The notes beneath the pieces were generated by a model. The model was not told the origin of the DNA, did not search any database, and saw only the letters and a program-made list of their open reading frames with translations. 45,125 nucleotides of DNA from a virus. Shown piece after piece: positions 2,215 through 26,468 of the stretch. The stretch's first letter is position 1. The number at the start of each line of letters is the position of its first letter. The translations under genes and the position numbers were made by a program. The DNA lies in IMG/VR virus record IMGVR_UViG_3300014166_000004, positions 1-45,125 of that record; one strand, written 5' to 3'.

Positions 2215-3504
2215 CTAGCGGCGCCCGTGAATGACGTACGCGACGTCGGCCGTGAGCCCGCCGCCCGGGAGCTCGAGGACGTCGCCGGCGCCGTAGCTCC
2301 GATCGGTGAACCCGGGGAGCGGGTTCCGGGTGATCGGATCGTAGACCGTGACGCCGTTGAGCGCGTACGACGCCTTGAGCCGCACGACGCCGCGAACGCC
2401 GCACGGCAATTGGATCACGCGGCCGTCGCCGGCGAGCGCGGAATAGGCTTTGTTTACTCCGTCGCCGGTGTCGCCCTCCCAATGGTTGTGCGGTTGAAAC
2501 GGCGCGACGGGGTTCGGCGCCTGCCATTGCGTGTTCGCGAACTGCCAATTCGGGAGGCCGGCCGGCAGGATCGCCGCGATGCCTTGAACGGCGTCGACGA
2601 TCGCGTCGATGTTGTCGATCTCCCAAAAATTCGGCGGCCGCGGCGCGCCGGAGCTCGAGGGCCGGCCGTCGCCGTATACGCCGGTGCCCGTGTGGAGCGT
2701 GAAGATCGGCGCGCCGCAAATGATCGCGACCGCTCGCTTCATTGCCAGGCGGAGCGGATCCGTGAGCACCGATCCGCTCGAGCCCGGGCCCGGGCCCTCC
2801 CAATCGGCGCCGACGAGCCCGCGATCGTCGATGAAGTCTTTCGCCTGGCGAACGTCGCGCCATCCGTGATCGGCCGGGTTCCGCTCCGTGTTGCGGATGA
2901 ACACCTTCACGCCGGCGGCGGCCGCGGCCGCGTGGAGTTGCTCCGCCTCCGCCTCGCTGCCCGGCGTCGAGAACGCGAGGAGGTTCCGGATCAGCGGATC
3001 GATCTCGCGCGCCATCGCCTCGAGCGTCGAGAGCGGATCGCCGCCGTTGCTGTATTCGTTCTGCATCTCGACGATCAGCACCTTGTGCTCGCGGCCGTCG
3101 ACGATCACGCCGCCGACGTCGCGCGCCAGGCGCCGGAGATCGTAGCCGGTGCCCTTGCCGCTGAGCGTGATCCCGCTCCGGAGTCCGAGCGACCACGAGA
3201 GATCGAGATCGCGCGCGATCGCGCCCAGGTGATCGGGGAACGTCGCCGGGTTGATCTCGAGCGGCGGATTCCATGCGACCTCATAGAGCGGCCGCTTGTA
3301 GTCGAACCCCTTCCGCGCCGCCCATTCGAGGTTCGCGCGGTAGCGATCGGGTTCGTTCCGCGCGCCTTGAAGCGACCACATGAACGTCAATCCGAGCGGG
3401 TACCACTCGCCGCCGTCGTCGTGAATCGCGCGGCCGTTCGCGGCGGGAACGCCGGCGCGCGGGCCGCCGCCGCCGCCGCCGCCGATCTTGTGATGGGTTC
3501 TCAC
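2215..3504 (-). CDS. Glycoside-hydrolase-like (TIM-barrel) protein, putative surface-glycan hydrolase
   Basis: A 429-residue protein starting at a GTG that overlaps the upstream stop (GTGA). After a Gly-rich linker (residues 8-14, seven glycines) comes WYPLGLTFMWSLQGARNE, then alternating helices and strands typical of a (beta/alpha)8 barrel. VEMQNE at 145-150 resembles the strand-4 Asn-Glu acid/base pair of clan GH-A glycosidases. The C-terminal ~80 residues look like a small beta-sandwich (GRVIQLPCGVRGVVRLKASY... ADVAYVIHGRR), as in many GH-A enzymes. It stands in the tail/host-contact region beside a second large protein and a lytic transglycosylase, suggesting a virion-borne or late enzyme attacking host polysaccharide. 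Family assignment is by pattern only. Confidence 0.65.
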   Translation of the reverse strand: MRTHHKIGGGGGGGPRAGVPAANGRAIHDDGGEWYPLGLTFMWSLQGARNEPDRYRANLEWAARKGFDYKRPLYEVAWNPPLEINPATFPDHLGAIARDLDLSWSLGLRSGITLSGKGTGYDLRRLARDVGGVIVDGREHKVLIVEMQNEYSNGGDPLSTLEAMAREIDPLIRNLLAFSTPGSEAEAEQLHAAAAAAGVKVFIRNTERNPADHGWRDVRQAKDFIDDRGLVGADWEGPGPGSSGSVLTDPLRLAMKRAVAIICGAPIFTLHTGTGVYGDGRPSSSGAPRPPNFWEIDNIDAIVDAVQGIAAILPAGLPNWQFANTQWQAPNPVAPFQPHNHWEGDTGDGVNKAYSALAGDGRVIQLPCGVRGVVRLKASYALNGVTVYDPITRNPLPGFTDRSYGAGDVLELPGGGLTADVAYVIHGRR

Positions 3505-3944
3505 GAAATCACCTCGACGGCGAGCGGGAACCCGAAAAACTTGTGCCCGGGCCCGTCCGGGTGGTTTTCGTCCGTCGTCTGCTCGACCTGCGCTTCGATC
3601 GCGCCGTTCTCGTTTCCGTCGTAGACGCGCCACTGCTCGAGCTCGCCGGCGTCGGTGTTCCCCGTCGGTTTGTGGTACCCCTGCTTATCGAGGCCCGCGG
3701 AGTACTGCCCCGCGTCGGCGCCGGCGAGCGCGTCGGCCTCGACGTTCGTGAACGTGTAGCGGTTCGACGGGAGCTTGTGAGCGCGATACTTCGCGGCGCT
3801 CGAGTCCTGGCCGACGTAGAGCACGCCGCGCCACTCCGACGGTTTCCCGTCGAGCGTTCCCCAAATGCCGGTACCGGGCGCGTCGGGCGCGATCACTTTG
3901 CCGCCGGCGCCGCGGAGCCGTACGATCTTGCCGTCGATTTCCAT
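3501..3944 (-). other. Possible separately translated C-terminal domain (nested start)
   Basis: Met504 of the 650-residue protein (ATG at 3944) is preceded by AAGGAA at a spacing of 8 nt and by a Pro-rich linker. It would give a free 147-residue product starting MEIDGKIVRLRGAGGKV. The frame is open across the junction, so both a long fusion and a short product are possible. Confidence 0.4.
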
Positions 3945-5453
3945 GGTTAGTTTCCTTTCGTGTGAGCGGAACGGTTTCGGAGGTTTCGGAGGATCGATCG
4001 GAGGATCGGACGGGATCGGCGTGAGCGTCGCGGCGCCGGCGGCCGCGGCCGCGGCGACGAGGTTGTCGAACGCCTGGCGGAGCTCCGGATGCGCGACGAT
4101 GCCGTTCGCCCGATCGTACGCGAACGGCGCGACGATCTTGATCCACGTCGACAGGTTCGCGATCTCGTCGATCCGCTCGAGCGCCTCGAGCACCTCGCCG
4201 ACGGTCCAGAGCTCGTTCGGCGGCGCGCCGCCCTGGCAGTAGAACATCGGGATCACGCCGCAATCGCGCGGCCATTGCGCCAGGTACGATCGGGATTGCC
4301 GCTCCCATCGTGCGAACGTCGCCGCGAGCGGTTCGCCCTTCACGCGATAGAGCTCCCACAGCACGAGATCGTACGAACGGAGCACGCCGGCCGGGATCGT
4401 CCAGTCGCTCTCGCCGTCATGCGCCAGGAGGAGCCGGCCGGCCGGGAGCGGCGACGGCGGCGTCGGGTTCTCCGTGTAGGTGCCGAGCGTAAAGAGATCG
4501 GGCCGGCCGGAGCCCGCCGCCTTGAACGGGTACACGCTGATCGGATGCGTGAACCGGAACGTCGGGATCGGCGTCGGCGCCGGCGGGTTGATCTCCTCGA
4601 TCGGCGTGAGCGTGAACGTCCGCGGCGCGCCGCCAGGCCAGAACGGGAGCGGCGTCGCGGCGCCCGTGAGGACGTCGAGATCGTATCCCCATATGTCGCC
4701 GGCGCCCTCGCCCTCCGTCCTCGAGATCGCGATCCGGATCGTGTTCGCGCCGACGGCGGCGATCGCGTGCCATCCGTCGCCGACGGGGAGGATCGGGAAC
4801 GCGCGCGCGGCCGACTTGAACGGATGGAGCACGATCCCCTTCGCGCCGGAGTAGTAGCAGATCCACCATTGCCCGCCGGCGAACGCCGCCTGGGGTTTCC
4901 AGATCCCGCCGTCGGTAATGTAGGCCGGCGCCGGCAGGTTCGCGACGCGGACGACGAACCCTTCGATCCAGATCGCGCGCCTCGAGCCGAGGAGTTGTAA
5001 CGCGCCGGCGTGCCCGGGCGAGATCTCCCACTCGTCGCCGGCGAGCTCGCGGACGATGGACGGCCCGTTCGATTGGTACGACGGTTTGTAGCAGATCGCG
5101 CCGTCGGGCCCGACGCCGAGCAGGCCGGCGTCGAGGAGCCGGATCCCCGTCGTCGTGTAGAGCCCGCGCTCCGGCCCTCGAGCGCCGAGCCACGCGGCGA
5201 CGACGCCGCCGCCGGCGTATGCGGTGTTCGCCGACGTCACGAGCCCGCCGCCGAAATCCACGCGCGCGATCGCGCCGGTGCGCTTGTCGTACGTCGACAC
5301 GATCCAACCGTCGGCGCCGTTCGCGAACACGGCCCGATCGGGATCACGCCATCCGCCGGCGCCGCCTGGCGAGAATGCACGGTTGTTGATCGACGCGTTC
5401 CCGCCGCCGACGCCGTGCTCGACGTCGCCGCTTTCCGGTTCTATGAACGGCAT
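3501..5453 (-). CDS. Large putative tail-fibre/host-interaction protein (beta-propeller-like plus TIM-barrel-like)
   Basis: A 650-residue protein. Residues ~20-260 are beta-rich with repeated Gly-Trp and aromatic patterns (GADGWIVSTYD, GQWWICYYSG, GDGWHAIAAVG), suggesting a beta-propeller or similar sheet domain. Residues ~330-480 (RLLLAHDGES, YDLVLWELYRVKGEP, IPMFYCQGG, WIKIVAPFAYDRANG) look like a glycosidase-type barrel fragment. A Pro-rich hinge at ~485-495 leads to a C-terminal domain from Met504, which has its own ribosome-binding site. It is preceded by the transglycosylase gene and overlaps the glycosidase-like gene downstream. Probably a virion or late host-surface protein; exact role unknown. 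Confidence 0.6.
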   Translation of the reverse strand: MPFIEPESGDVEHGVGGGNASINNRAFSPGGAGGWRDPDRAVFANGADGWIVSTYDKRTGAIARVDFGGGLVTSANTAYAGGGVVAAWLGARGPERGLYTTTGIRLLDAGLLGVGPDGAICYKPSYQSNGPSIVRELAGDEWEISPGHAGALQLLGSRRAIWIEGFVVRVANLPAPAYITDGGIWKPQAAFAGGQWWICYYSGAKGIVLHPFKSAARAFPILPVGDGWHAIAAVGANTIRIAISRTEGEGAGDIWGYDLDVLTGAATPLPFWPGGAPRTFTLTPIEEINPPAPTPIPTFRFTHPISVYPFKAAGSGRPDLFTLGTYTENPTPPSPLPAGRLLLAHDGESDWTIPAGVLRSYDLVLWELYRVKGEPLAATFARWERQSRSYLAQWPRDCGVIPMFYCQGGAPPNELWTVGEVLEALERIDEIANLSTWIKIVAPFAYDRANGIVAHPELRQAFDNLVAAAAAAGAATLTPIPSDPPIDPPKPPKPFRSHERKLTMEIDGKIVRLRGAGGKVIAPDAPGTGIWGTLDGKPSEWRGVLYVGQDSSAAKYRAHKLPSNRYTFTNVEADALAGADAGQYSAGLDKQGYHKPTGNTDAGELEQWRVYDGNENGAIEAQVEQTTDENHPDGPGHKFFGFPLAVEVIS

Positions 5454-5468
5454 CCGGCCGCCTTTCGC

Positions 5469-6041
5469 TTAGAGGGTTGAGCGGAGCCGCCGGTACCGCT
5501 CGAGAACCTGATCCGCGTATGCGACGTTGCGGAGCGGGCCCGCGGGCGAGTTGCCGGCGCGGCCGCCATTGTACGCGGCCAGGCCGGCGCGCGTAGCGGC
5601 CGCCTGGCGCCCGCCCTCGAGCCCGACATACAGGCCCGCGGCCCACTTGATGTTGGCGGCCAGGTGCGCGGCGCCGAGCGCGAGATTCGCGGCGGGATCA
5701 GTGCAGAGCGACGGGAGGTACTTCGCGCGGTATCCGAGCTCGCGCGCGACGGCGCCCATGATCTGAGTGAGGCCCCACGAGGCCATCTGGCCCCACCATT
5801 CGTTGTCGGGATCGCCGGCGAGCGCGGGGAAATCTTTCGGCGGGAACCTGGCGTCGAGCTCGTGATCGCTCACGCGTCGGAACGGTTGCCCCGTGCGGAC
5901 GTTCCACAAGTAGCGGTACCGCGGTTCGGGGTTCCACGCCGACGCGTCGTAATTCGATTCCTGCTCGACGAGGGCGGCCAGGAGCGGGAGCTCGAGGCCC
6001 TTCGCCGCGGCCGCCGTCTCGATCTCGCCGCGGAACTCCAT
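5469..6041 (-). CDS. Lytic transglycosylase (SLT-like endolysin or virion-associated lysin)
   Basis: A 190-residue protein of the soluble lytic transglycosylase/lysozyme-like fold, which cleaves the MurNAc-GlcNAc bond of peptidoglycan. LLAALVEQESNYDASAW carries the catalytic Glu28 in the ES pair. WGLTQIMGAVARELG matches the GLMQI motif, and AAHLAANIKWA... GLAAYNGG matches the AYN-G motif near the C-terminus. An insertion (PRYRYLWNVRTGQPFRRVSDHELDA) lies between the first two motifs, a form seen in phage transglycosylases. No signal peptide, so it would need the nearby holin-like protein or delivery on the tail. The ATG overlaps the upstream stop (TGATG). Confidence 0.88.
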   Translation of the reverse strand: MEFRGEIETAAAAKGLELPLLAALVEQESNYDASAWNPEPRYRYLWNVRTGQPFRRVSDHELDARFPPKDFPALAGDPDNEWWGQMASWGLTQIMGAVARELGYRAKYLPSLCTDPAANLALGAAHLAANIKWAAGLYVGLEGGRQAAATRAGLAAYNGGRAGNSPAGPLRNVAYADQVLERYRRLRSTL

Positions 6042-7426
6042 CAGTACCCGGCGCCGCCGGCGAGGAGCTTGAACGTCGTCGGATCGAGGAGCGCCGCGAG
6101 CGCGCCCGCCTTGAGCACCTGGCCGGGCGCCGGCGGGAGCGCGATCGTCCGCTCCGGCGTCATCTCGATCACGTTGCCGGCGAATTCGACGATCGCCGTG
6201 TTCGCCAGGAGCGACGCGAGGCCCGGGCCCGTCGAGCCGTCGCCCATGATCCCGTACGAGCCGGTTCGGAGGACGTTTCGCGAGAACGTGATCGGCGTCC
6301 GCGGGCCGCCGCTGAATTGTAGGAACCGGCCGGCGATCTTCGGCCAGGTGTTATTCGTGATCGTGAGCGCGTCGGCGACGCCGTTGATCACTTGCACGCC
6401 GCCGCCGGCGTCGGCGAAAAGATTGTGATCGATCGTGAGCTTGCGGAGTTGACCCGACGGCCCGGCGTCGTCGCGCCCGAGCACGTTCACGGAGAACCCA
6501 TCCGGCGCGCGGCGAACGGTGTTCCCGCGGATCGTTACATCGTCGACGGTGCACCATGGGCAATTGCCTTGCCCGCGGACGGTGATCACGATCGTCGAGC
6601 CGGCCTGGCCGTCGGTCCAGTTGCCATCGATCGTATTGCCCTCGATCACGACGCCGATCCCGATCTTCGCCTCGACGGAATTCTTGACCGTGCCGAGCGT
6701 GCGGAACGACTCCGGCTTGCGGATCGTGTTCCCCTTGATCGTGATGTTTGCCGGGTTCATGCCGACGATCCCAGGCGTCGCGCCGCCGATCAGGATGTTC
6801 TCGCCCGTCGCCTCGAGTACGGAATCGAGCACGGCATAGGGCCCGGGCCCGTTGCAGATCCACACGGCCTGAGAGTCGCGGCCCTTTTCATAGAACCCCA
6901 GGACCGACACGCGCCGGAGCGTGATGTCGGCGCCGTGGAGCGCGAACCCGCGATGCCCGCCGCCCTCGAGCGACGGGAGGACGTTCACGTCCTCGAATAG
7001 CACGCCGTGCGGTTGCGCGTCGGCGCTCGTCGCCTCGAGTGAACCGACAACGATCGCATCGCGATCCGGTTTCCCCAGGCGAACAGAGAGCCCGCGAACC
7101 TCGACGCCGTTCGCCGCGACGGTGAGCGTCGGCTTGAACCCGTCGGCCGCGGTGAGAGTCGCGCCGGCGCCGGCGAGCTTCGTCGGTTTGCTGATCGTGA
7201 AATTGCCGGCGTAGGTACCAGGCGCGAGGGTGATCGATCCGCCGGCGGCGAGCGCGGCGCCGAGCGCGGCCGCATCGGTGACAGTCGCGCCAGGCGCCGG
7301 CGCGGTGAGCGACGCGCGGAGCTTGTCGAGCGTCGCCTGGAGTTGATCGAGGAGTTGCGCCGGCGTCGGTGACTGCGGCGCTTGCGCCAGGAGGAGGAGG
7401 ACGGCGATCGCGGCTTTGAGCTTCAC
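6041..7426 (-). CDS. Secreted right-handed parallel beta-helix protein (pectate-lyase-like fold)
   Basis: A 461-residue protein with a clear signal peptide (MKLKAAIAVLLLLAQA, cleavage likely after Ala16), a short helical linker, then a parallel beta-helix. The helix opens SLTAPAPGATVTDAAAL...GGSITLAPGTYAGNFTISKPTKLAGAGATL, the usual cap and first rungs of pectin-lyase-like proteins. Many rungs carry Asn ladders (ITIKGNTIRK, VVIEGNTIDGN, VTIRGNTVRR, LTIDHNLFAD, LTITNNTW). Polysaccharide lyase, depolymerase or glycan-binding roles are typical of the fold. A signal peptide is unusual for a phage tailspike and implies export from the cell. The GTG start overlaps the upstream stop (GTGA). Confidence 0.75.
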   Translation of the reverse strand: MKLKAAIAVLLLLAQAPQSPTPAQLLDQLQATLDKLRASLTAPAPGATVTDAAALGAALAAGGSITLAPGTYAGNFTISKPTKLAGAGATLTAADGFKPTLTVAANGVEVRGLSVRLGKPDRDAIVVGSLEATSADAQPHGVLFEDVNVLPSLEGGGHRGFALHGADITLRRVSVLGFYEKGRDSQAVWICNGPGPYAVLDSVLEATGENILIGGATPGIVGMNPANITIKGNTIRKPESFRTLGTVKNSVEAKIGIGVVIEGNTIDGNWTDGQAGSTIVITVRGQGNCPWCTVDDVTIRGNTVRRAPDGFSVNVLGRDDAGPSGQLRKLTIDHNLFADAGGGVQVINGVADALTITNNTWPKIAGRFLQFSGGPRTPITFSRNVLRTGSYGIMGDGSTGPGLASLLANTAIVEFAGNVIEMTPERTIALPPAPGQVLKAGALAALLDPTTFKLLAGGAGY

Positions 7427-7644
7427 TGTGTAACCCCTTCGGTGAGTCGGTTCGTCACGTGCTCGATTACCTTCGTTTGCATGTCGACGAGCTCGAGCCG
7501 GCGCTCGACGTCGGCCCGCTCCCGGGAGAACTCCTCATATTTCGCGCGGCCCGCCGGCGACACCTTTCGGCGATCTTCCGCCCCGTTGTCGCGGATTGAA
7601 TTCAACGGACACCTCCCACAGAGCCACCGAAAAAACGTTTTCAT
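7423..7644 (-). CDS. Small hypothetical helical protein (73 aa)
   Basis: The protein begins MKTFFRWLCGRCPLNS and continues as a charged helix (AGRAKYEEFSRERADVERRLELVDMQTKVIEHV) that could form a coiled coil. The N-terminus holds two Cys (CGRC) and an aromatic start that might touch the membrane. It is coupled to its upstream gene by ATGA and to the beta-helix gene by GTGA. Placement among holin-like and lysin genes is compatible with a lysis accessory (spanin-like) role, but nothing in the sequence proves it. Confidence 0.6.
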   Translation of the reverse strand: MKTFFRWLCGRCPLNSIRDNGAEDRRKVSPAGRAKYEEFSRERADVERRLELVDMQTKVIEHVTNRLTEGVTQ

Positions 7645-7895
7645 AGATCGTCGACCAATCGCGCGACCTTCATTTGCTCGAGATCCTGACGGTTGAGGAT
7701 GATCGCGCCGGCGTCCTCGACGCCCACGTAGATCTCGAAAATATGCCACTCGCGGCGGCCCGCGAACGCCGGCGGCCCCAGGTACCGGCCCGCCAGTGCA
7801 CGCGGTTTACCGTACTTCGGGTGCCCGACGTCCCAAACTTTCGCGGGGATATCCTCGAGGTAATAGGCGAACCCAGGCACGAGCCGCGGGAGCAT
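7641..7895 (-). CDS. Hypothetical protein (84 aa)
   Basis: MLPRLVPGFAYYLEDIPAKVWDVGHPKYGKPRALAGRYLG... EWHIFEIYVGVEDAGAIILNRQDLEQMKVARLVDDL. A compact, aromatic-rich alpha/beta protein without known motifs. It starts one base after the stop of the holin-like gene (TGAGATG). It lies in the lysis block between a membrane protein and a small helical protein. Function unknown. Confidence 0.65.
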   Translation of the reverse strand: MLPRLVPGFAYYLEDIPAKVWDVGHPKYGKPRALAGRYLGPPAFAGRREWHIFEIYVGVEDAGAIILNRQDLEQMKVARLVDDL

Positions 7896-7896
7896 C

Positions 7897-8223
7897 TCAC
7901 TTTCCGCCGAGTAGCTTTCGATTTACGACGCCGACCTGAGTCGCGACGTGCATCAATTGTTCCGTCTGACTCTCGAGGATCCCGGTGTTCCGGAGCGCGA
8001 CGTCGCGCCAGAACGTGATTTGCTCGTTGAGGAGTTTCGCCTCCGCCTCCGCGCGTTCGGTGTACTCCGATTTTTCGGCGGCGTGCCGCGCCTCGAGCTC
8101 GACGAGATCCTGGCCCCATCGCCAGATCCGGTACTTGTTGCCGGCCAGGATGATCACGAGGAGCGTCGCGAAGCTGACGCCTCCGAGCATGTTCGCGATC
8201 TTTGCGGCTTCGTCGATCGACAC
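7897..8223 (-). CDS. Holin-like protein with one membrane segment and coiled coil
   Basis: A 108-residue protein. A short N-terminal helix (SIDEAAKIANML) is followed by a single hydrophobic segment at about 13-28 (LGGVSFATLLVIILAG). After it come KYRIWRW and a long charged helix (LVELEARHAAEKSEYTERAEAEAKLLNEQITFW), and the protein ends LLGGK. This is the plan of many one-TM phage holins or membrane-anchored lysis proteins. The GTG start has GGGGAG seven bases upstream. It lies just after the tail-fibre gene and four genes before the transglycosylase, as expected for a lysis cassette. Confidence 0.6.
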   Translation of the reverse strand: MSIDEAAKIANMLGGVSFATLLVIILAGNKYRIWRWGQDLVELEARHAAEKSEYTERAEAEAKLLNEQITFWRDVALRNTGILESQTEQLMHVATQVGVVNRKLLGGK

Positions 8224-18829: not shown

Positions 18830-20827
18830 TTAGGAGGGTTCGTGTCCGACGTTCTTGTAGAGCCCGCGCCAGTCGAGCACCTTCGCCGCGAAGTCCTCGC
18901 GACACTTGATCTCGACGCCATCGACATCGAACCCGATCCGGGTTTCGATCGTCGGCCCCTCCTCGCCCTCGAGGTAGCCGTATTCGATGATGTCGATCTG
19001 CGCCGGATCCGCCGCCAGGAACCACGCGAGCGGTTCGTTGTCGAGCCGCGGTTCCGCGATCACGGTGAGTTTCCCGCTGAACGGGTTCACGGCGAGCACG
19101 GTCTGCGGCGTGATCGGCGTGACGATCGCATCGCCCTGCGTCTCGAGGGCGGAGCCCACGAGGAGATACTTCGGCGCGATGTTGAGCCGCTCGCCGTCGA
19201 GCGATACCTGCTGGCGCATCGCCGCGCGCGCCGCGCCGAGCGAGTCGACATCGATCACGGCGCCGCTCGAATCGATGTTGAGGTGCGCCGCGGAGAAGAG
19301 CGCGTTCCCGTCGCCCATCGTCGGGTTGCTCGTGATCTGATCCCACACGAGATCGCTCTCGAGGTTCCGCGCCGCGCGCCCGAACATCGTCGGCACGCGG
19401 CCGAACGCGTCGGCGTCGTCGTTCACGAGGGCCTTCCGCGTGATGGCGAACACGCGGCCGTACGTCGCAAGCTGGTACGTCTCGCGGCCCTCGCCGATCG
19501 TGCCCCGCTTGAACTCGCCGTGCTCCTTCACCTCGAGGAGCGCCGGCGCGTCGCCCATCTGCTGACGGTAGACGGGTTTGAAATCGGGGAGGTTGACCTG
19601 GCGCGCGATCGTCTTGAACGTCTGCGGCGCCTCGTCGTACGCCTTGCGGACGGTTTTGTTGGCGACGTCGGCCAGGAGGTACGCGAAATCGCTCGTCGTG
19701 TGGTAGCCGTGCCCGCTGCGCTGATTGAGCCCGAGCGCCGCGGCGGCGAGCTCCATCTTCGAGAGGCCCGACGTCCGCACGCCGGCCGCGTGGAGAAACG
19801 TCCGCGCCGTGTCGAGGAGCGTGAGCCCGCGATACGGCCGACTCTTGTCGTCGAGTTTGAAAAACTGCGGCGCGATCCGGTGCAGCAGGGCCGCCTCGAT
19901 CCCGCCCCGCACGTGCACCAGCGGATCCTCGCCGAGCGTGACGGAGGTACCGGGTTGCGGGCCGCGATCCTGCGCGCCGCGCGCCTGGAGCTCGACGAAC
20001 ACGAGGCGCGACACCTCCGCGAGCGGCGTCCGCTTCTCGATGTGGTGATCGATGAACTCCTGCGGCATCCGGCCGCCGCGGGCGGCGGTGATGATGCCCT
20101 GGACGCGGGCGGTTTCGTCGGCGGCGGCGCGTTCGGCGACCGTCGGTTCGGCCGCGGGAGCCGGTCGCGCGGCGGGTTCCGCCGGGTGGAGCCGGAGGGC
20201 CGCGGCGGCGGGATCTTCGGCGACAGTTTCGGCACGGCGAGCGGCATCGTTCACGGCAGGCTCCTTACGGATGATGAGACACGGATTGGAATCGGCGCGA
20301 TCGTTCTCGCCTTTGCGAGTCCGCGCGCCGGTGTCGGCCGGCATGGGAACCATTGAGATCTCGTAAGGTTCCCAATCGATCGCCGTACGAACAGGGATCG
20401 CGCCGGTGTCGTCCTGCTCGAATTTGTGGACGCGGTACCCGACGCTGACGTTTTGCAGGATGCGATCTTTGACGTCGTTCCAGATCGGCGTCACAGAATC
20501 GCGGTTGCTGAACCGAACCCGAACGATCGCCTTCCCGTTTTCGATCCGGAACGTGTTCGGCACGACGGTGCCGATCTGATCCTCGACCGACCACGCGGAA
20601 TGCGCGTTGAGGAGCGGAGCCGTTTGGAGGCGCGCGACGCGGATCGCGTCGGCGGAGATCTCGAGGGCCTCGAGGTACTCGCCGGTGTCCCAATCGAACC
20701 GGCGAACCTGCGCGCCCGTGGAGAAAATGAGCTCGATCGAGCGATCGGTTTCGTTGATCGTGTCGGCGGCCGCCCGCGCCAGGAGCGAGAGCGGCGGAAC
20801 ATCGATCGTCGTCGCGGCCGGTTTCAT
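18830..20827 (-). CDS. Prohead protease-major capsid protein fusion
   Basis: A 665-residue two-domain protein. Residues 1 to ~170 are a prohead protease of the HK97/U35 herpes-assemblin type: IELIFSTGA (32-40), LLNAHS with His76, then NVSVGYRV with Ser128 and DWEPYEISMVPMPAD (151-165) with Glu156. An Ala/Pro/Glu-rich linker (~195-240) follows. Residues ~260-665 are a Mu gpT-like major capsid protein (TLGEDPLVHVRGGIEAALLHRIAP, RGLTLLDTARTFL, TYGRVFAITRKALVNDDADAFGRVP, and a C-terminal IIEYGYLEGEEGPTIET). The protease would cut itself off during maturation, as in known fused systems. The gene follows the HTH gene after 74 bp that contain a hairpin. Confidence 0.9.
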   Translation of the reverse strand: MKPAATTIDVPPLSLLARAAADTINETDRSIELIFSTGAQVRRFDWDTGEYLEALEISADAIRVARLQTAPLLNAHSAWSVEDQIGTVVPNTFRIENGKAIVRVRFSNRDSVTPIWNDVKDRILQNVSVGYRVHKFEQDDTGAIPVRTAIDWEPYEISMVPMPADTGARTRKGENDRADSNPCLIIRKEPAVNDAARRAETVAEDPAAAALRLHPAEPAARPAPAAEPTVAERAAADETARVQGIITAARGGRMPQEFIDHHIEKRTPLAEVSRLVFVELQARGAQDRGPQPGTSVTLGEDPLVHVRGGIEAALLHRIAPQFFKLDDKSRPYRGLTLLDTARTFLHAAGVRTSGLSKMELAAAALGLNQRSGHGYHTTSDFAYLLADVANKTVRKAYDEAPQTFKTIARQVNLPDFKPVYRQQMGDAPALLEVKEHGEFKRGTIGEGRETYQLATYGRVFAITRKALVNDDADAFGRVPTMFGRAARNLESDLVWDQITSNPTMGDGNALFSAAHLNIDSSGAVIDVDSLGAARAAMRQQVSLDGERLNIAPKYLLVGSALETQGDAIVTPITPQTVLAVNPFSGKLTVIAEPRLDNEPLAWFLAADPAQIDIIEYGYLEGEEGPTIETRIGFDVDGVEIKCREDFAAKVLDWRGLYKNVGHEPS

Positions 20828-22772: not shown

Positions 22773-23384
22773 TTACCCCTTTTCCGGAACGATCGGGATC
22801 CGCCGCGTCGGGTTCGGTTCGGGCCCGCGACACGGGCATCGCTTCGCCGTCGGAACCGTCGACGGGAGCGCGTCGCCGTGCGCCCGCCGCCAGTGATAGA
22901 CGTACAGACTCTCGAGGACGTAGACGCGGAGCCCGGCGCGCGCGATCGCGAAATGCATCATGTGATCGACGCACAACATACCGTCGACGAACCCGCCGGC
23001 GAGCTCCCAGGAGCGCCGCGAGAGCATCATGAGCACGCCGCCGATCCCCTTCGTCTCCGTGCAATCGAGGAGCGTTCGCCGCTCGAGGCGCGCCGCGCCG
23101 ATCTTCCGGTGGTACGCCATGTCGTGATTATCGTGATCGGCCTCGCGCGCCCGCTGCCACGGCGACGCGATCCGGTTCGTCGTCGCAGTGACGAGGCCGA
23201 CGTCGGGCCGGTGCTCGATCACTTCGTGCAATTGCCGGTACCACTCCCGCGTCGTCGGCATCGCATCATGATCGAACAGACACGCCCAACCGTCGGCCGG
23301 GAGCATCGCCATTGCGCGATTGTAGGCGCGCCCCAGGTTCGCCTCGAGATCGAACGGTATGAACGTCGTGAGCTCTATCGCCAT
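22773..23384 (-). CDS. Glycosyltransferase, GT-A fold (GT2-like)
   Basis: A 203-residue protein (MAIELTTFIPFDLEANLGRAYNRAMAMLPADGWACLFDHDAMPTTREWYRQLHEVI). The phrase NLGRAYNRAM followed by DGWACLFDHDAM is the strand-helix and DxD motif (DHD) of GT-A glycosyltransferases. KGIGGVLMMLSRRSWELAGGFVDGMLCVDHMMHFAIARAGLRVYVLESLYVYHWRR is the acceptor-side half with a catalytic-type Asp. It is the last of four sugar-handling genes just before portal. The start overlaps the preceding glycosyltransferase by 10 nt; ATG at 23396 is an alternative. Substrate unknown. Confidence 0.82.
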   Translation of the reverse strand: MAIELTTFIPFDLEANLGRAYNRAMAMLPADGWACLFDHDAMPTTREWYRQLHEVIEHRPDVGLVTATTNRIASPWQRAREADHDNHDMAYHRKIGAARLERRTLLDCTETKGIGGVLMMLSRRSWELAGGFVDGMLCVDHMMHFAIARAGLRVYVLESLYVYHWRRAHGDALPSTVPTAKRCPCRGPEPNPTRRIPIVPEKG

Positions 23385-24076
23385 TCGCTGACCCATGGAT
23401 AATGCGCGCTCTGCTCGAGCACCTCGAGATCGTCGGAGCCGAGCACGACGATCCGCGCGCCTCGCGGGAGGTGCGGATGGCCAGGACCGACGCCGCGGCG
23501 CTCGAGCCGCTCGTATCCCTTGCCGAAAAACGTCACGAGCCCGTCGGCCTCCGTCCACACGGCCGGCCGGATCGCCGGCGTCCGCGATAGATAGAAATTG
23601 AGCATCGCCTGATCGCTCCCGACGCCTCGAGGCGCCGCGCGCCTGGCGTAGCCGTCGGGATCCGCGTCGAACGCGCGCCAGAGCGGATCGAGCACGCCGG
23701 CGTCCATGAGGACGATCGAGCCGGAGAACACGCCCGCATATGCGACGCGCCAGCACACGAGCGGATCCGGCCGATCGACGAGCGGCGTTATGTCGTCGAC
23801 GATCACGACGTCGAGATCGAGCGACAGGATCCGATCGCCGATCGCGCGCGCGAACTCCCGATCGAACTGGCGCATCCGCCGCCGGCATCGCGGCGAGTCG
23901 GCATGGCGGGCCGGGAGCTCGAGCACCTCGATCGCGTCGTCGAGGCCGGCGCCGTCGTCGGTGACACAGACGATCCGGTGCTCGAGCTCGAGGCGCCGCG
24001 CGAGCATCGATCGGAGCGTGTTCACGTGGCGCGCGCCAAACTTCGATCCCCACTTCCACGTGAGGACGGTTAGCAC
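23375..24076 (-). CDS. Glycosyltransferase-like protein (nucleotide-diphospho-sugar transferase fold)
   Basis: A 233-residue protein opening VLTVLTWKWGSKFGARHVNTLRSMLARRLELEHRIVCVTDDGAGL. A first strand is followed by HVNTL and IVCVTDD, as in GT-A enzymes acting on NDP-sugars. GDRILSLDLDVVIVDDITPLVD carries the metal-binding DLD motif. GSDQAMLNFYLS is a further family-like motif, and the C-terminus is PRGARIVVLGSDDLEVLEQSAHYPWVSEWR. The GTG start lies over the stop of the triple-domain enzyme, with GGGAG upstream. Part of the four-gene glycan cassette; donor and acceptor unknown. Confidence 0.75.
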   Translation of the reverse strand: MLTVLTWKWGSKFGARHVNTLRSMLARRLELEHRIVCVTDDGAGLDDAIEVLELPARHADSPRCRRRMRQFDREFARAIGDRILSLDLDVVIVDDITPLVDRPDPLVCWRVAYAGVFSGSIVLMDAGVLDPLWRAFDADPDGYARRAAPRGVGSDQAMLNFYLSRTPAIRPAVWTEADGLVTFFGKGYERLERRGVGPGHPHLPRGARIVVLGSDDLEVLEQSAHYPWVSEWR

Positions 24077-25737
24077 TCCTCGTACTCCCGCTGACCGTCG
24101 AGGAAAAACGCGGCCGCTCGAGGATGGGTGAGTTGCGAGCGGTAGCACGCGAGCGCGCGGAGCTTGCGTTCGATCGAGTCGGCCGCCGGCGGCGAGAGCT
24201 CGAGGCCCTCGCGAATACGTTCGGCGCCGCGGTACGTCTGATACCGACGCACGATGGAACCGAACACCTCGCCGGCGGCCGCCGCGACCGCCACGTGATC
24301 CGCGTGCGAGGCGTTCGCCGACGGCGCCCATATCTCCGCCGGCATGCCGTGCTCGCCGATGAACGCGCGCATCTTGGCGGCGAGATCTCCGCCGGCCCAT
24401 TGCTCGACGGGCCCGGCGCCCAGGATGGCGGCCGCGGCGCGCGACTCCTCGAGGCGTTCCGACGTGTCGCCGTAGTCGCGGACGGACGGATAGCAGATCA
24501 CGATCCGCGGCCGCGCCCGTAACAGCGTGAACGCCGCGAACAGCGTCTCGTCGTCGGCGTGCGGCGCGAATAGAACCGCGTTCCGCTTCACGCCCTCGAC
24601 GAAAAAGACGTCGGGCGGCGCGCCGTGGAACCGCTGACAGAGCGACGCGTCGCGGTACTTCGTCTCGTCGGGCCCGACGTCGAACACGGTGAACCCGCCG
24701 GCCTCGAGGTGCTCGCGGACGAACGCCGGCGTCGTGAACGTGATCGCCGGTTGCGATCCCTTCCATCCGCCGACGCATCGCGACCGCGGATCCGCCGTCT
24801 CGTCCTCCGTGATCCGCACGACGCCGCCAGGCTCGAGCACGCGCGCGAGCTCGTCGACGAACGCCGGCCAGGCGTCGGCCGCGAGGTACATGAGCGCGTG
24901 TGAGATCGTCACGCCTGCGACGGTGCCCGCGGCGAAATCGCGCAGGCCGTCCTCGAATTTCCAACCGAGCGACTTATCGAGGTTCACGAGGCCGTCGAGC
25001 GGATGCCAGGATCGATCGTCGGGGTTTCCGCATCCGAGGTTCAGCCGGAGCGGCGAGCGGATCCCGCCGTGCGCCAGGCGCGCGATCTTCGGGAGTCGAC
25101 TCCGGCCCGTGACGCCGTGCCGGTACGTCGCGAGCACCTCCGGAACATAGCGGCATCGCGCGACCTCCGCGATCGCGATCCAGAAGTACCAGTCCTCCGG
25201 AACCTGGCGATCGTTGAACCGGATCCCGCCGATCGTCGCGCGTCGAATGAGCGGCGCCATGATCGGGATCAGGTTGCCGCGGCGGAGGAGCGGCGCGATC
25301 CATCCGCCGAGCTCGTTTCGATCGTACGAGTATTGTTCCGACGCCTTGATCGTGCGGCGCTTCGCCGCGTCGCGGATCTCGACGTCGCATAGAACCCAAC
25401 CGATAGTCGGATCGAACGCGCGCACCTGGCGATCGAGCTTCGTCGGTTCGATCGTGTCGTCGGCGTCGAGGAACATGAGGAACGCGCCGCGCGCCATCTC
25501 GATCCCGAGGTTCCGCGCCGACGAGGGCCCGCTGTGCGGTTGCCGCATGTAGCGAACCCGACGATCGCCGGCGAACGCGTTGAGCGCCTCCGGCGTCGCG
25601 TCCGTCGATCCGTCGTCGACGACGACCGCTTCGACCTCGACGCCGCCCGTCGACGCGAGCACGCTCGCGATCGCCTCGCCGACGACGGCGCCGTGGTTGT
25701 GCGTCGGAATGATCACGCTCACGAGCGGCGGCGTCAT
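24070..25737 (-). CDS. Triple-domain enzyme: GT2 glycosyltransferase + SAM methyltransferase + PIG-L deacetylase
   Basis: A 555-residue protein with three consecutive catalytic domains. Residues 5-225 form a GT2 glycosyltransferase: VSVIIPTHNHGAVVGEAIASVLAS, VVVDDGS (38-44), metal motif DADD (91-94) and VPEDW (179-183). Residues ~229-385 form a class I SAM methyltransferase: LRLNLGCGNPDD (230-241), and LARVLEPGGVVRITEDE as the post-strand-4 loop. Residues ~386-555 form a PIG-L/LmbE-type deacetylase: FAPHADDE (390-397) and HADH (478-481), both zinc-binding motifs. The plain reading is that one polypeptide transfers a sugar, probably an N-acetyl-hexosamine, and then deacetylates and methylates it; the substrate is inferred. 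The ATG overlaps the upstream stop (ATGA). Confidence 0.88.
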   Translation of the reverse strand: MTPPLVSVIIPTHNHGAVVGEAIASVLASTGGVEVEAVVVDDGSTDATPEALNAFAGDRRVRYMRQPHSGPSSARNLGIEMARGAFLMFLDADDTIEPTKLDRQVRAFDPTIGWVLCDVEIRDAAKRRTIKASEQYSYDRNELGGWIAPLLRRGNLIPIMAPLIRRATIGGIRFNDRQVPEDWYFWIAIAEVARCRYVPEVLATYRHGVTGRSRLPKIARLAHGGIRSPLRLNLGCGNPDDRSWHPLDGLVNLDKSLGWKFEDGLRDFAAGTVAGVTISHALMYLAADAWPAFVDELARVLEPGGVVRITEDETADPRSRCVGGWKGSQPAITFTTPAFVREHLEAGGFTVFDVGPDETKYRDASLCQRFHGAPPDVFFVEGVKRNAVLFAPHADDETLFAAFTLLRARPRIVICYPSVRDYGDTSERLEESRAAAAILGAGPVEQWAGGDLAAKMRAFIGEHGMPAEIWAPSANASHADHVAVAAAAGEVFGSIVRRYQTYRGAERIREGLELSPPAADSIERKLRALACYRSQLTHPRAAAFFLDGQREYEEC

Positions 25738-26468
25738 ACGGCGGCCGCCTCGAGGGCCTCGCGCTCGAGCGCGCGCCAGGTTTCGACGAGCGGGCGGAGC
25801 GTCGTCGACGCCATCCCACGGAAGATCGCGCGACGGAGATCGCTTTTCAGGTGAACGATCCGCGTCGACGACGGATCGAACCGCGTCCACGTGGAATCCT
25901 CGCAATTCCAGATCTCGCCGGGGAGCTTCGCGATCGCGCATCCGTTCCCCGCGCGCTCGAGCATGAACCCGAGCGCCGCCTGGTTGATGCCGGCGTACTT
26001 CATGCGCCAGGGCCGGAGCGCCGCGGCGTCGCCGAGAAACGACCGATTGACGGCGGCCCATTGCTCGACGAACGCGCGCGATCGCGGCGACACGCGAACG
26101 AACACCACGCCGGCGTTGAACGGGAGGCGCGACGCGGCCGCGGTGATCGCGAGATCGAACGGCCGATCCCAGGCGGGATCGAGCGGCCCGAGGATCATCG
26201 TGTCGACGTCGAGGAGGAGCACCTGATCGCCGTCGGCCGACGCGCGGATCGTGTCGCGCCAGGCGTCGAGCTTCGCGGAGTTGTGCTCATGCGCGGGAAC
26301 GCCGAGCGTCGAGCGGTAGGACGTCGGCGCCGGGAGCTCGAGGATCTGGCGGCGCCAGGCCGGCGCGTGACGGAGCGCCGAGTACTCGAGCGCGCGCGCC
26401 ATCCGACGGAACTCGCCGCCCGACGTGCCGGCCCCGAAGTAGACGGAGGCGAGGAGCGGCGCGGCCAT
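25734..26468 (-). CDS. Glycosyltransferase (GT8-like)
   Basis: A 244-residue protein (MAAPLLASVYFGAGTSGGEFRRMARALEYSALRHAPAWRRQILELP...). DQVLLLDVDTMILGPLD supplies the DxD metal motif (DVD) after a hydrophobic strand, as in GT8 and related GT-A enzymes. SRLPFNAGVVFVRVSPRSRAFVEQW, then GINQAALGFML and IVHLKSDLRR match the second half of that fold (the NAGV and H-K motifs). It is the first gene of the sugar cassette, 15 bp after gpW, so it is transcribed with the head genes. Confidence 0.83.
   Translation of the reverse strand: MAAPLLASVYFGAGTSGGEFRRMARALEYSALRHAPAWRRQILELPAPTSYRSTLGVPAHEHNSAKLDAWRDTIRASADGDQVLLLDVDTMILGPLDPAWDRPFDLAITAAASRLPFNAGVVFVRVSPRSRAFVEQWAAVNRSFLGDAAALRPWRMKYAGINQAALGFMLERAGNGCAIAKLPGEIWNCEDSTWTRFDPSSTRIVHLKSDLRRAIFRGMASTTLRPLVETWRALEREALEAAAV

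Follow-up and report, generated by a model that had tools for sequence, protein, structure and literature searches.

An accessory beta-helix protein with an export signal-like N-terminus in the lysis cassette of an uncultivated tailed phage

A 45,125-base IMG/VR virus record (IMGVR_UViG_3300014166_000004; this whole stretch is hereafter the window) carries an accessory gene (6041..7426, minus strand) that starts with GTG and encodes an exported-type right-handed beta-helix protein of 461 amino acids. The sequence displays a signal-like N-terminus and kinship with bacterial proteins, the structure model gives the fold, and comparison with sister phages marks the gene as accessory. The explanation towards which we lean, which bears out the initial interpretation in part, is that the product is an accessory protein of bacterial descent that is exported to the periplasm, set free when the cell lyses and active on a polysaccharide.

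Portal and head genes in the window identify the virus as a tailed phage. The genes are ordered as tape measure, Ig-containing tail protein, transmembrane (TM) protein, small genes, beta-helix gene and SLT transglycosylase, which bears out the initial annotation in placing the beta-helix gene in a lysis and tail region, with the tape measure and the Ig-containing tail protein upstream and the transglycosylase after it. The TM protein (7897..8220, minus strand) has one TM segment plus a coiled coil; it is holin- or spanin-like by topology only and had no match in a PHROG search. It is followed on the same strand by a conserved 84-aa gene (7641..7895) and by a conserved small gene (7423..7644) upstream of the insertion point. 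The GTG start of the beta-helix gene overlaps the stop of this upstream gene (GTGA at 7426-7423), and the sequence upstream contains a ribosome-binding-site-like GAAGGGG (7434..7440, minus strand). At the other end, its stop overlaps the start of the SLT-domain transglycosylase (5469..6041, minus strand; Pfam E 4e-11), which is endolysin-like and has no signal. GC content by codon position in the beta-helix ORF is 0.66/0.52/0.87, a coding-like composition. A tRNA-Ala (cgc) called by ARAGORN at 6050-6134 overlaps conserved coding sequence of the gene and is probably a false positive. Two large genes after the endolysin (3501-5453 and 2215-3633) are conserved in sister phages and had no Pfam or PHROG match at 0.01; by eye they resemble beta-propeller-like and TIM-barrel glycosidase-like proteins.

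The N-terminus of the beta-helix protein reads VKLKAAIAVLLLLAQAPQ and is export signal-like, the signal-like segment occupying residues 1-16 (7379..7426, minus strand). We scored it with a home-made rule requiring a positive n-region, an uncharged hydrophobic core and an A-x-A-like site. By this rule the positive n-region and hydrophobic core of a Sec signal peptide are present and the score is 35.1; a score of at least 31 was reached by 81 of 20,000 fragments drawn at random from the interior of the window's proteins and by 166 of 20,000 shuffles of the protein's first 45 residues. Three of the 54 called genes in the window have a signal-like N-terminus under the same rule, and the beta-helix protein ranks top. 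A search for in-frame ATG, GTG or TTG between codons 1 and 142 found none, so that the signal is always made; this also ruled out a mis-called start masking a signal-less form. The initial annotation had described a clear export signal ending in LAQA. The signal-like start stands, but the cleavage point was given imprecisely: AQA is followed by P17, which makes the cleavage site uncertain. Proline after an A-x-A site blocks signal peptidase I, and cleavage after LAQA is therefore doubtful. LLA|Q is a possible site, and judging from the residues cleavage at A14|Q15, or none, would be as likely as cleavage after LAQA. The ortholog L001 starts with MNTRTALLALLLLAQSQTPAQL; charge and hydrophobic core are kept while the letters have diverged (43% identity over 14 aligned codons, dN 0.49, dS 0.35). 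L001 has AQS without a proline after it, and either protein might be cut at A14|Q15.

The beta-helix fold proposed initially was confirmed by structure prediction and by a match to PF13229 (Pfam Beta_helix) at 31.6 bits, above the curated cut-off of 25.9. An AlphaFold model built with 43 sequences is a right-handed beta-helix with a pLDDT of 93.4 and a pTM of 0.88; with two sequences only the pLDDT was 59, and the fold search from that model was set aside. The model shows a helix at residues 2-13, a 19-residue helix at residues 22-40 (7307..7363, minus strand), whose sequence is common to the signal-less relative L043, and then the beta-helix at about residues 47-421 (6164..7288, minus strand), to which fold matches and conserved residues also point. 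VIA-align placed AlgE6 (Z 33.1, rmsd 2.2, 312 aligned) and the Sf6 tailspike (Z 33.1, rmsd 2.5, 330 aligned) beside AlgE4 (Z 32.3), the RbmB polysaccharide lyase (30.5), NosD (30.2) and a PL6 lyase (30.2) near the top, and searches with Foldseek and a viral library gave the same fold class. The matches span residues 43-453 only. Likeness to the AlgE C-5 epimerase modules, PL6 lyases and RbmB is one of fold, with 11-18% identity in structural alignments. Many of the fold matches bind polysaccharides or act on them; the matches also include NosD and the adhesin PfbA, and the fold alone is therefore no proof of such action. R159, N192, E209, K237, K248, N249, K254, W270, Q274 and W291 are invariant in all 43 aligned rows, and E205 and E252 are kept in 42 of the 43; invariant polar residues across these rows suggest that a functional groove has been retained. 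A polysaccharide target would fit the modelled fold and these residues. Three other assignments were discarded: a GH110 galactosidase was the only sequence match among solved structures and too weak (E 5e-4), matches to IspD and NosD lay under curated cut-offs, and a secreted endolysin was rejected with Beta_helix alone passing its Pfam cut-off and no peptidoglycan-degrading domain present.

Five phages with the same gene order were traced via relatives of the neighbouring endolysin, and in four of them (L003-L006) the beta-helix gene is missing at the locus: the stop of the small gene lies 13, 73, 73 and 31 nt from the aligned endolysin, as against 1,859 nt in L007 and 1.38 kb in the window. 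When the records of L003-L006, L008, L009 and L011, several of which are fragments, were searched whole, no copy was found elsewhere, and the gene is thus present in one of eight records searched (that of L007, also termed G005). Most core genes are 60-90% identical among the collinear phages, a few lower. With four collinear sisters devoid of it, the beta-helix gene is not a core tail gene. Its only close viral ortholog is L001, 80% identical (L001, L051 and L007 are the same phage). Against this ortholog dN/dS is 0.34 for the whole gene, 0.23 for the helix and 0.29 for the beta-helix, and the sequence comparison indicates that the gene as a whole is under purifying selection. In L009, two signal-like proteins (4711-6972 and 7394-7693), one of 753 aa, are encoded in the tail-lysis region.

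More distant relatives differ in whether they carry a signal. A first genome scan yielded no relative of the beta-helix protein; relatives were found in a scan with a pattern from the invariant NGPGPY...EA.GE stretch, which matched 12 viral and 71 bacterial stretches, and an A3 profile of the viral set confirmed a relative at 83 of 83 pattern loci. In INPHARED phages, no relative turned up for the protein at E 0.01 or for the endolysin at 1e-5. Among bacterial ORFs with a complete 5' end a signal is found in 61 of 69 (shuffles give 24.8), under a version of the rule that allows any upstream start and is looser than the stricter one. With this looser rule, two of the 11 complete viral ORFs other than the window's have a signal (L051 and L047), or three of 12 with the window included, the equal-scoring L048 and L052 being counted separately. 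L047 (3990-6314; MNEDRTIKAIAWGMFIVCVIAVAFAIASAQ) belongs to another part of the tree than the window, and its signal passes the looser and fails the stricter rule. Its beta-helix gene is the second after a LydA-type holin (PF16083, E 3e-8); provided that its 65-kb contig does come from a virus, viral records show at least two origins of a signal-bearing copy close to lysis genes. The viral relatives L040-L043, from profile scans, show 48-53% identity in the part that matched, and none has a signal. Five signal-less viral relatives in the window's clade share the beta-helix and begin with a helix; L043 starts at the counterpart of the window's post-signal helix (QLQTILDQLKAEV versus QLQATLDKLRASL). 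Two of the signal-less viral relatives are encoded just after tail genes, L040 and L041 lying at the end of a tail module. In L053, a small signal-like protein (3695-4216; MNRREMMTTTVLGAAGFATGTAFTAPACPGG) comes directly after a signal-less beta-helix relative.

A tree of 76 rows pairs the window with L051 (100/100) and places both in a clade of seven members, all viral (100/96); three proteins of one Vicinamibacterales genome form the sister group of this clade (100/100). These three proteins are also the nearest rows to the window, at 40-43% identity; two have signals and one is 5'-truncated. The contig of two of them has peptidase- and symporter-like neighbours, from translations read by eye. 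Matches occur in 39 of 162 genomes of the order Vicinamibacterales, some of them short and weak. Viral rows are also found elsewhere in the tree, which needs six label changes, all six forced by starred branches. The nearest known system is an exported bacterial PF13229 family (Acidobacteriota, Rokubacteria, Bacteroidota and others), with L058 and L109 of Vicinamibacterales closest. The Vicinamibacterales relatives resemble the window protein in domain sequence, conserved polar residues and export signal, and differ from it in lying in a bacterial genome, in the BACON and PKD domains of one sister protein and in the phage helix: in our sample only phages have the helix that separates signal from beta-helix, which is missing from both bacterial sisters whose 5' ends are complete. 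Two routes to the window's signal follow from this, either a phage ancestor with signal and helix from which most lineages lost the signal, or a regain of the signal in the window lineage. The sister group suggests that the host belongs to the Acidobacteriota.

We infer the following course for export, cleavage, timing, activity and substrate. The gene would be a moron-like accessory insertion into a tailed phage's lysis cassette, with its origin in a large bacterial family of beta-helix proteins that are exported, and its product would be targeted to the Sec pathway. In a diderm host, as the Acidobacteriota sister group implies, Sec export would end in the periplasm and not in the medium, so that lysis or a further secretion step would be required for a protein described as secreted. 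The product may reside in the periplasm, either free or tethered through a signal that stays uncleaved, and be released in bulk once the neighbouring lysis proteins open the cell. It would then bind, and probably cleave or modify, an envelope or extracellular polysaccharide, which could ease escape and spread of the progeny or alter the host surface.

The protein could also be a tail-associated or virion-bound depolymerase whose hydrophobic start is a packing helix and not an export signal, a reading we regard as possible if rather improbable. It agrees with the PHROG match to tail spike (E 7e-8; profile annotation would label the protein a tailspike, as PHROG does), with the Sf6 tailspike among the top fold matches (Z 33.1) and with the phage-specific helix after the hydrophobic segment, which could be a virion or trimer handle. 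The Sf6/HK620 tailspike depolymerases are like the window protein in their right-handed beta-helix (Sf6 Z about 33) and polysaccharide-acting class. Unlike them, it begins its beta-helix at residue 47, the 46 residues before it being, in the model, signal plus one helix, and it is optional, missing from four collinear sisters whose tail genes are otherwise conserved. The hydrophobic segment, moreover, fits a signal, and the bacterial relatives are exported. All this favours the initial view that the protein is not an ordinary tailspike, but signal-less relatives adjoin tail proteins, so that it may yet be attached to the virion.

Two further readings keep the signal and change its role. As an uncleaved anchor, it could hold the protein on the periplasmic side of the inner membrane, there to hold or block an exported polysaccharide or a receptor, for example to exclude other phages. 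The proline after AQA and the short core with a helix directly after it would suit such an anchor, but in the ortholog AQS is not followed by proline and both proteins could be cleaved at A14|Q15, and we think an anchor unlikely. That the signal is a relic of host-gene capture with no role in the phage appears very improbable: the sister group is bacterial and exported and most related phage copies lack a signal, as a relic would have it, yet both signal-bearing phages keep a good signal despite divergence to 43% identity, and since the phage helix stands between the signal and the beta-helix, the former was not simply carried over.

The window protein has a parallel in lysis-module phage proteins with their own export signal. 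Lys44 is an exported phage endolysin with a Sec signal, and SAR endolysins are likewise exported, as described in PMC6116005; the window protein differs in having no peptidoglycan-degrading domain and an SLT neighbour without a signal. Soil viruses are described as carrying auxiliary carbohydrate enzymes, among them a chitosanase (PMC9485262), with mangrove soil viruses as a further case (PMC6460857), and these resemble the window gene as carbohydrate-related accessory genes in uncultivated phages; the term 'signal peptide' is absent from the main text of both papers. A literature search of open-licence papers found no exported phage beta-helix protein. Should export hold, phage lysis modules can include a soluble protein that acts on polysaccharides and does not belong to the particle, and the occurrence of one domain in related phages, with a signal in some and none in others, offers a clean natural comparison of virion-bound and exported use.

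A glycan cassette lies between portal and terminase in the window. It comprises a frame without a family match (22773-24059), a GT2-methyltransferase-PIG-L protein (24070-about 25755) and a 244-aa protein without a family match (25734-26468). G005 holds all three genes at 76-81%. G001 and G002 cover the same place with another set that includes a methyltransferase and a relative of the 244-aa protein at 51-52%; the G001 cassette has a GT1 enzyme and that of G002 a look-alike. Four of the collinear genomes span both loci, and in all of them presence of the beta-helix gene tracks cassette type: the window and G005 (with the gene) share one type and G001 and G002 (without it) another; with four genomes, this link is only a lead. 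The window is 76% identical to G005 in the portal versus 81 and 83% to G001 and G002, and 71% versus 75 and 78% in the endolysin; in several core genes the window and G005 are no closer than the window and G001 or G002, and in others they are closer. Within the dying cell, an exported beta-helix might act in concert with the variable glycosyltransferase cassette that the phage itself carries (22.8-26.5 kb), remodelling the host surface or an exported polysaccharide in the periplasm, blocking competing phages and freeing progeny, although we hold this scenario to be decidedly unlikely. AlgG-like epimerases and AlgL-like lyases are models for remodelling a polysaccharide in the periplasm. Elsewhere in the window, a single protein (18830-20827) matches both head protease and major head families, annotated as 'major head and protease protein' (E 3e-215).
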